DNA from: an uncultured Bacteroidaceae bacterium
Lineage (GTDB): Bacteria; Bacteroidota; Bacteroidia; Bacteroidales; Bacteroidaceae
DNA: 64,000 nucleotides
Assembly (NCBI GenBank): GCA_939800445.1
Contig: CALNGU010000002.1
Span: 1-64,000 of the forward strand
Direction: 5' to 3'
Shown: one piece after another, positions 32,828-46,579 of the stretch
Position numbering within the stretch: position 1 is the first letter of the stretch
Layout of the letters: each line of letters opens with the position of its first letter
Made by a program: the position numbers and the translations under genes
The notes under the pieces: model-generated
What the model was told of the DNA's origin: nothing
Databases searched by the model: none
Seen by the model: the letters and a program-made list of their open reading frames with translations, nothing else

Positions 32828-33295
32828 ATTATTATATAAGACATTTGATTCCCATACTAAAAGCGCGCGGCGCAACCGCCGGCAATTATGCAAATCCACC
32901 CTTGGCGGAGCGGCGGGCAAGGCAAAAACACCCGTTCCCCACAGCGCACGGAGGCAAATATATGTAAAAAAAGCACCGCACAACTCCAACTTCGCACCAT
33001 AAAAATATCCCCCAACTACCCCCAGATATAGGAAAAATCATTTTGTCTGACAAAACGCCCCACTCCATGCCACCACCGCCCACACACCGCGCCGCGACAA
33101 GGCGGACGGGCACATATATAATATGGTATAGGCACTCACACCCTCACCCAAGCCATGCACGCTCCGGCAGGACAGCCACTGCAAGCCCGACGGCCGCCCG
33201 CCTGCCGCGAATGCCACGCCCGTGGCGGCGATGCGCACCGCCCGTCCACACGTCCTCTCCGCCGCATCCGCGCCATGAGGACAGGGGACAAAACA
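32828..33295. other. Intergenic stretch with no gene seen
   Basis: GC-rich between about 33060 and 33290, AT-richer before. Short open frames exist on both strands, but none has a plausible start, family resemblance or promoter. I see no RNA gene. The region leads into the composite array at 33296. Confidence 0.6.
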
Positions 33296-33508
33296 CATCA
33301 CGTCAGACATAAACTTCCACCACGTCAGACAAGAAGTTGCATGAGGTCAGACGCAAAGTAAAAACAAAAGTTCTGTTTATATATTCAGAAGTTTTGTTTT
33401 AATATTCAAAACTTCTGTTTTTACTTTACATCTGACCTCATGCAACTTTTCGTCCGACCACACGCAGGTTTATGGCAGACGTGGTGGAAATTGATGTCCG
33501 ACGTGATG
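33296..33508. repeat. Composite 21/22-bp dyad array, copy B (ten cores)
   Basis: Cores and centres: GTCAGAC 33305, 33327, 33349; CAAAAGTTCTG 33370; CAGAAGTTTTG 33391; CAAAACTTCTG 33412; ATCTGAC 33433; GTCCGAC 33455; GGCAGAC 33477; GTCCGAC 33499. GTC-type cores are 22 bp apart; steps involving the central AT-rich cores are 21 bp. The whole is a long imperfect inverted repeat (CATCACGTC at the left end, GACGTGATG at the right), the right arm having one more 22-bp unit. It ends 63 bp before the porin-like gene's promoter. Confidence 0.93.
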
Positions 33509-33571
33509 GGGAAACGGAGTGGTAGTTTTTGCCGAAAACAACGCAGGTGTGACAATTTTTAACGAAAGATA

Positions 33572-33601: not shown

Positions 33602-33673
33602 CCACGTGCATTAGCGCAATGGGGGAACCGAAAACCCAATGAACAGAGTAGGAGGACAAAAACAAAGATTACT

Positions 33674-46390: not shown

Positions 46391-46548
46391 GGCGGACATA
46401 AACTTGCATGAGGTCAGACGTAAAGTAAAAACAAAACTTTTGAATATATAAACAAAACTTCTGAATATACTTTACGTCTGACCTCATGGAACTTTTCGTC
46501 TGACGTGGTGGAAGTTTTGGCCTGGCATCATGGGGTTTGTCACCTGAC
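46391..46548. repeat. Composite 21/22-bp dyad array, copy C (eight cores)
   Basis: Cores and centres: GGCGGAC 46394, GTCAGAC 46416, CAAAACTTTTG 46437, CAAAACTTCTG 46458, GTCTGAC 46479, GTCTGAC 46501, GCCTGGC 46523, ACCTGAC 46545. Steps are 22, 21, 21, 21, 22, 22, 22 bp. It has two central AT-rich cores, against three in copy B. The array fills the space between the glycosyltransferase stop and the lon promoter. Confidence 0.92.
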
Positions 46549-46579
46549 CTACCCGCACGGCCGGCTGCATCGCCCGGCA

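Follow-up and report, generated by a model that had tools for sequence, protein, structure and literature searches.

Phased dyad arrays at conserved intergenic positions in Bacteroidaceae genomes as candidate platforms for a putative oligomeric nucleoid protein

Introduction

Why does an intergenic gap of an uncultured Bacteroidaceae bacterium carry ten short dyads set 21 or 22 bp apart, and what would hold them there? The locus lies in a 64,000-nucleotide stretch of DNA, here called the window, which is taken from contig C2 of the 2.22-Mb, 136-contig assembly of genome G000. A preliminary description of the window reported the ten dyads at 33296-33508, together with two further copies, and proposed that they are bound by a dimeric protein on one face of the helix or constitute an undescribed BIME-like element. 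We examined the locus in its own genome and in related genomes, and we describe below the arrays, their distribution, and the explanations that can be given for them.

The arrays in the window

Inspection of the sequence confirmed each of the ten core centres at its reported position. Eight of the ten cores match GTCNGAC or CARAANTTYTG exactly, and the cores centred at 33433 (ATCTGAC, from 33430) and 33477 (GGCAGAC, from 33474) carry a single mismatch each. The proposed spacing rule was upheld, in that consecutive GTC cores lie 22 bp apart and any step that involves a CARAA core measures 21 bp. The two kinds of core are also as described, but they do not alternate; instead, the CARAA cores form a central block with GTC cores on either side. 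The complete array with its arms spans 33253-33520, as delimited by a profile based on arrays of G000 and of its sister species, G002; it has three central cores and 22-bp arm units on both sides. The left arm (33302-33352, plus strand) has GTCNGAC words at 33302, 33324 and 33346, which are 22 bp apart with ATAAACTT/AAGAAGTT units between them. The central block (33365-33417) has CARAASTTYTG cores at 33365, 33386 and 33407, which are 21 bp apart and joined by AT-rich linkers. The right arm (33430-33502, minus strand) consists of ATCTGAC, GTCCGAC, GGCAGAC and GTCCGAC, again 22 bp apart, and is inverted relative to the left arm.

Shuffled DNA did not reproduce these phased dyads. The window contains four pairs of CARAANTTYTG at 21 bp, compared with 0.00 in 100 dinucleotide shuffles, and seven pairs of GTCNGAC at 22 bp, compared with 0.17 in dinucleotide-preserving shuffles of the window. 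A chance origin of the pattern in the window is excluded.

The two further copies, reported at 1-129 and 46391-46548, proved to be real. The former is truncated by the start of contig C2; its profile match covers 1-163, with cores at 13 and 34 and one arm, and its flank is syntenic with that of the G002 array at C11:48365, which is complete with four cores. The latter is complete but short, with cores at 46432 and 46453 between matching arms (profile match 46393-46577), and is syntenic with G002 C9:96932. With two or three central cores compared with the usual four, the copies in the window are thus short or truncated. The main array sits between two divergently transcribed genes, and the neighbours of the window arrays are unrelated, encoding an Omp28-domain protein, an outer-membrane β-barrel protein, Lon and a glycosyltransferase. 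The Rfam DUF805b RNA (RF02914, cis-regulatory; 40.3 bits) was matched at 33619-33654 on the plus strand, between the main array and the outer-membrane β-barrel gene that starts at about 33674.

A dispersed family and its anatomy

The preliminary description was correct about the array at 33296-33508 but understated it, as the locus is one short copy of a family dispersed over the genome. A scan for cores at 21-22 bp found about a hundred intergenic array copies in G000, and the sister species likewise carries them. The core-pair pattern gave 275 forward matches in G000 (at most two mismatches) and 322 in G002 (at most one mismatch), compared with none for the reversed-pattern control in either genome. 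The pattern was absent from the remaining three congeners and from 96 additional relatives, save for one match at chance level in G076, and a survey of 301 genomes of the family showed the same restricted distribution and added G277 as a carrier of related arrays. The reversed control pattern (GTYTTNAARAC pairs, 21 bp) matched three times in G003, once in G051 and in none of the other genomes. With the array profile, 74 arrays were located in 1.50 Mb of G002.

The usual array of G000 and G002 has four contiguous 21-bp sites, each of which is a CARAA-S-TTYTG core with an AT-rich half-linker on each side; the middle linker of the four-core block is mostly TTTATATAAA. In 320 cores from 80 four-core arrays the centre is always C or G, which corrects the core from CARAANTTYTG to CARAASTTYTG. 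The R, S and Y positions and the AAA/ATT flanks are free to vary between arrays, and the remainder of the core is fixed. The arms beyond the core block are made of 22-bp units, in which a conserved (A)TAAASTTC-type piece is joined with a word of 9-11 bp (GTCNGAC, CTCGGYG-, CCCGTAC-, CCTGAC- and others), and they peter out outward over three or four units. The words in opposite arms (u1-u3) tend only slightly to be different from each other.

The genomes are draft MAGs, and the sequence examined in detail amounts to about two-thirds of G002, one-fifth of G000 and one-tenth of G004, a congener described below. Several contigs terminate at arrays; in G000, contigs C1, C2, C7, C28 and C81 begin or finish inside or beside one, which indicates that arrays break MAG assembly.

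The same architecture with other words

The congener G004 lacks the array sequences of G000 and G002 and carries arrays of its own, 26 of them in 252 kb. In 23 of these 26 arrays there are precisely four dyads of 13 bp, spaced 22-22-22 bp, and two more arrays have a 22-44 pattern. The sites are of two types, GATGTRCGCCATC and GAYCGAGCCGATC, in either orientation, and the pair pattern has 140 forward and 146 reverse matches genome-wide and none in controls. These arrays can be read as strings of A+, A-, B+ and B-, mostly with two A and two B sites (for example L098, at G004:C1 31566-31644; about 25 more sites fall within L098-L138). In a different Bacteroidaceae genus (g14), CAAARSYTTTG cores recur every 21 bp in the genomes G277 (66 pairs) and G341 (18 pairs), in runs of up to four whose linkers are partly position-specific. 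No CAAARSYTTTG arrays were found in the other 43 g14 genomes, bar one weak match each in two. The sequences show that one geometry is common to at least three lineage-specific vocabularies that differ in their letters. The carriers are patchy (three of five congeners and two of 45 genomes of genus g14), which shows that not every member of the family has the function.

When G001 and G003 were searched de novo for lattices of four dyads, no clear excess emerged, and the four hits inspected had no array-like repeat; enriched words in G003 that we had at first read as arrays were dropped. The 21-bp CAAA..TTTG tandem repeats in the more distant Bacteroidales G452 and G530 are direct repeats at few loci, which are probably minisatellites, and we did not count them as the same family.

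Placement and spacing

Arrays occur on nearly all contigs sampled. When genes were called with a purpose-written hexamer caller, no array fell inside a called gene in G000, G002 or G004, and all of them are intergenic. The orientation of the genes around arrays is the same as around other gaps in G000 (p=0.21) and G002 (p=0.11), and no promoter or terminator bias was seen in this test of the two genomes. G004 shows a weak difference (p=0.046), with a relative surplus of divergent and convergent gaps around arrays. Convergent genes flank 16 of the 73 arrays in G002 and 5 of the 24 in G004.

The distances between arrays were compared with nulls in which arrays were placed uniformly or among intergenic gaps. 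The closest pair in G002 is 4.4 kb apart, and none of its 63 gaps is shorter than 4 kb, compared with 11.6-13.5 expected (p<0.001). The closest pair in G004 is 4.3 kb apart, and again no gap is shorter than 4 kb (0 of 12, compared with 4.3-5.4 expected; p<=0.0024). The few gaps available in G000 show the same tendency to avoidance. With a density of about one array per 9.7 kb, the gaps in G004 are also unusually even (CV 0.37, compared with 0.75-0.77).

Conserved positions with sequence turnover

G000 and G002 share 86% nucleotide identity when arrays are masked. A syntenic flank no more than 1.5 kb away was available for 15 G000 arrays, and at 14 of these places G002 has an array as well; most of the position matches rest on one flank only, and two G000 arrays share a single partner in G002 (C6:16053). 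At the fifteenth place G002 is array-less but retains an arm remnant. Fourteen orthologous positions out of 15 at this identity show that the arrays are not the random decay of a transposon end, an outcome that the preliminary description had said would speak against its reading.

The similarity of orthologous arrays, calculated for ten pairs, was 0.776 in the centre and 0.474 in the arms, compared with 0.748 and 0.440 for non-orthologous arrays, so that a shared position brings scarcely any extra likeness, although the aligned DNA beside the arrays is 86% identical. Within G002, the similarity of arrays drops with contig distance, from about 0.95 in the centre at less than 20 kb to 0.90 between contigs (p<0.001). 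The array at G000 C5:8849 (L074, 8849-9106) unites the left flanks of two G002 arrays, C7:88964 and C6:16053, which is consistent with an exchange between two arrays. We rejected the idea that array gaps are hotspots of synteny breaks, since the enrichment (1 of 4 array gaps, compared with 5 of 201 gaps elsewhere) is not significant (p=0.11). From these observations we infer, as the simplest reading, that the sites are inherited vertically and are rewritten by array-array recombination that favours neighbours.

Avoidance of perfect palindromes

Cores with identical halves are rare in G002, where 6 of 276 were found and 73.8 are expected from independent halves; G000 shows a weaker effect in the same direction (8 of 44, compared with 14.2 expected). 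Likewise, inverted copies of a core within one G002 array are rarer than expected (1.7% compared with 7.0%). The shared ancestry of the arrays means that the palindromy p-values overstate independence, although the deviation is large. Such avoidance would equally be expected of a site that is asymmetric by nature. The complementarity of the G002 arms is also lower within one array than between arrays. Because the cores avoid perfect palindromes, hairpins are not what selection keeps.

Alternative explanations

This last result bears directly on the proposal that the arrays act as RNA hairpins, either as terminators or as 3′-end stabilisers. The window array does fold strongly as RNA, to about -103 kcal/mol, but in G002 complementarity falls below the level of random pairing in both arms and cores, with arm mismatches in excess of those of randomly paired arms and the opposite of the compensatory arm changes that were looked for. 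In addition, the arrays do not favour 3′ ends or convergent gaps and match no Rfam family, and we rejected a hairpin or RNA function as highly improbable. Palindromy is equally relevant to membership in the REP/BIME family, which is mobilised by RAYT (TnpA-REP) and with which the arrays share high copy number, intergenic position, regular units in both orientations and mosaic arms (PMC2817692). Against such membership, the Y1_Tnp (RAYT) domain PF01797 has no match in G000 or G002, whose assemblies are 89% and 94% complete, and it was found in 5 of 14 control genomes; self-palindromic cores are far below the roughly 74 expected; arm complementarity within an array does not exceed the between-array level; and no REP-type conserved foot motif was seen in the printed arrays. 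The lack of a Y1 transposase and the avoidance of palindromy indicate that the arrays do not belong to this family, membership in which is scarcely credible, although they may work similarly; the term "BIME-like" thus survives as a loose analogy. A non-autonomous MITE-like element, whose arms would be transposase-binding sites and whose target immunity would explain the minimum spacing, fits the high copy number, the intergenic position, the roughly mirror-image arms and the exclusion distance, as well as some array pairs with a similarity of about 87-92% across more than 200 bp; a 22-bp lattice of transposase sites is known at the ends of Tn7. We nevertheless regard such an element as distinctly unlikely. 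The shared positions at 86% identity, including the arm remnant at the fifteenth, speak against it, neither a target duplication nor a clean empty site came to light, and no multi-copy transposase family was found among 1138 G002 proteins (1.50 of about 2.3 Mb). The mirror-like arms fade outward, and transposon-like ends were not found. Carriage on a plasmid, phage or viral contig was also rejected, as no genuine match to the arrays was found in plasmid, phage or viral-contig records. A pattern hit in the IMG/VR contig IMGVR_UViG_3300015370_000003 (L217, 4538-5140) is an unrelated coding repeat of about seven residues (SGNVSRI-like) with a 21-bp period.

Two further explanations were weighed. 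If the arrays were operators of a conventional global regulator, with an Lrp-type regulon in which each array regulates the adjacent promoter, then dyad clusters at two helical turns would be expected, since they are typical of Lrp-type operators (PMC2995911), and the somewhat over-represented divergent gaps in G004 and the divergent genes around the main window array would find an explanation. This reading is unlikely, because a share of the arrays in G002 and G004 occurs where two genes converge, a position in which promoters are not expected, because the minimum spacing of about 4.3 kb and the under-dispersion are not expected of operators, and because the genes beside the window arrays are unrelated. 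Sites of chromosome segregation or of site-specific recombination, either dispersed and centromere-like or crossover sites, would have a precedent in plasmid centromeres and iterons, whose phased multi-dyad layout resembles the arrays, and the joined flanks at C5:8849 point to exchange between arrays. However, about a hundred copies over all sampled contigs are unlike a centromere, homologous recombination between repeats accounts for the single exchange, and synteny breaks are not significantly enriched at array gaps, so that we consider this explanation very unlikely.

A putative nucleoid platform

The combination of fixed and free letters, rigid two-turn phasing and a four-site count that is kept with other letters points to recognition by protein dimers that are spaced by a larger assembly. 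On the evidence of the motif pattern, the spacing and the retained geometry, a dimeric protein on one face of the helix is probably the better of the two original proposals. The fuller reading, in which the arrays serve as platforms for a putative oligomeric nucleoid protein, with four dimers in an Lrp/AsnC-like geometry, and are rewritten in place by inter-array recombination, is in our judgement about as likely as not. In such a platform one dimer would occupy each dyad, with all dimers on the same helix face; four adjacent dimers would act together as a tetramer of dimers, comparable to Lrp/AsnC octamers; this unit would bend or wrap about 84-88 bp; and the arms may admit additional protein. 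About a hundred such nodes would organise the nucleoid, through loops, supercoil domains or segregation, and would not serve single promoters, as the distribution suggests. Selection would hold the arrays in place, while recombination or gene conversion, mostly with nearby arrays, would rewrite them. Because arrays occur on nearly all contigs sampled and in convergent gaps, and keep an exclusion distance, an architectural function is favoured over that of simple operators.

Lrp is the nearest geometric model for such a protein, because its dimers bind imperfect inverted repeats of 13-17 bp that are two or three helical turns apart from centre to centre, and its octamers wrap DNA (PMC2995911, PMC10201364). 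Spacing of the Lrp type (PMC2995911) is seen in all carriers, at 21 bp in G000, G002, G277 and G341 and at 22 bp in G004; on the other hand, the G004 dyads are not AT-rich at their centre, in contrast to typical Lrp sites. The preliminary description had suggested looking for a co-distributed DNA-binding gene, and the distribution of the AsnC family does not follow the arrays. G000 and G002 have a single AsnC-family gene apiece, and G004, G277 and G341 have two, but such genes are also present in the array-less relatives G003, G342, G301, G333, G236 and G343, among them several genomes of g14. Consequently, Lrp is a geometric analogue and a candidate rather than a co-distributed partner, and we do not accept it as a proven binder. 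In G004, the array at C2:837-915 (L100) lies between a divergent gene and the upstream side of the second AsnC gene (C2:1035-1541) and is possibly a site of autoregulation. At the array density of G004, an array beside this gene is not improbable by chance.

We put forward a broader reading more tentatively, as a possibility that we rate below even. According to this reading, the arrays belong to an undescribed chromosome-organising system of four-dyad arrays bound by a putative tetramer-of-dimers protein, at least about 4.3 kb apart and conserved in place throughout species lineages, with words that are rewritten and co-evolve with the protein. If this is true, the arrays would be a chromosome-wide, sequence-encoded bacterial scaffold that can be read from DNA, with about one node per 10-20 kb and an enforced minimum spacing, and both the protein that sets domain boundaries in Bacteroidota and the change of its specificity between sister species would become testable. 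The strong asymmetry of the dyads would make them a clean case of putative protein-binding near-palindromes that avoid perfect self-complementarity. Eukaryotic centromeres and recombination hotspots are familiar cases of sequences that are rewritten while their positions are kept, and we know of no bacterial example. The differing vocabularies on one four-site geometry would, if the broader reading holds, parallel these fast-evolving, position-stable sequences.

Comparison with known systems

We found no description of such arrays in the open-access literature, and the view of the preliminary description that they match no known class of Bacteroidetes repeat was borne out, as no known repeat family fits after comparison. 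The BOX elements of Streptococcus pneumoniae are modular intergenic repeats with about 100 copies and a variable number of units; their modules are longer and non-palindromic and, unlike the arrays described here, have no two-turn dyad lattice. In the MatP/matS, RacA/ram and SlmA systems a dimeric nucleoid protein binds palindromic sites dispersed on the chromosome, but those sites are single and lie in one chromosome region, whereas here multi-site arrays are spread over nearly all contigs. BrickBuilt, a MITE of Porphyromonas gingivalis with 19 copies of 23-nt tandem direct repeats and IS-like terminal inverted repeats (PMC4596501), is also an intergenic composite of short tandem units with inverted ends in a member of the Bacteroidales (PMC4596501). 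The arrays differ from it in being 21/22-bp dyads with inverted arms, in about 110 copies and with no transposon-like ends found, and the difference in unit length and type led us to reject membership. The REP/BIME elements of Enterobacteria and Pseudomonas are likewise intergenic, exceed 100 copies, consist of regular two-orientation units with mosaic arms, and have been proposed to organise the chromosome. In contrast to them, the arrays have no RAYT, avoid perfect dyads, keep a rigid 21/22-bp phasing with usually four units, and occupy conserved places. The closest likeness in geometry is to the operators of Lrp/AsnC (FFRP) proteins, such as BarR, FL11 and E. coli AsnC, in which imperfect inverted repeats are spaced by two or three turns and several dimers on one helix face wrap the DNA (PMC2995911, PMC10201364). 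However, the known Lrp/AsnC cases are single operators beside regulated genes, whereas the arrays number about 100 per genome, lie at least 4.3 kb apart, occupy convergent gaps as well, and are written in lineage-specific words.
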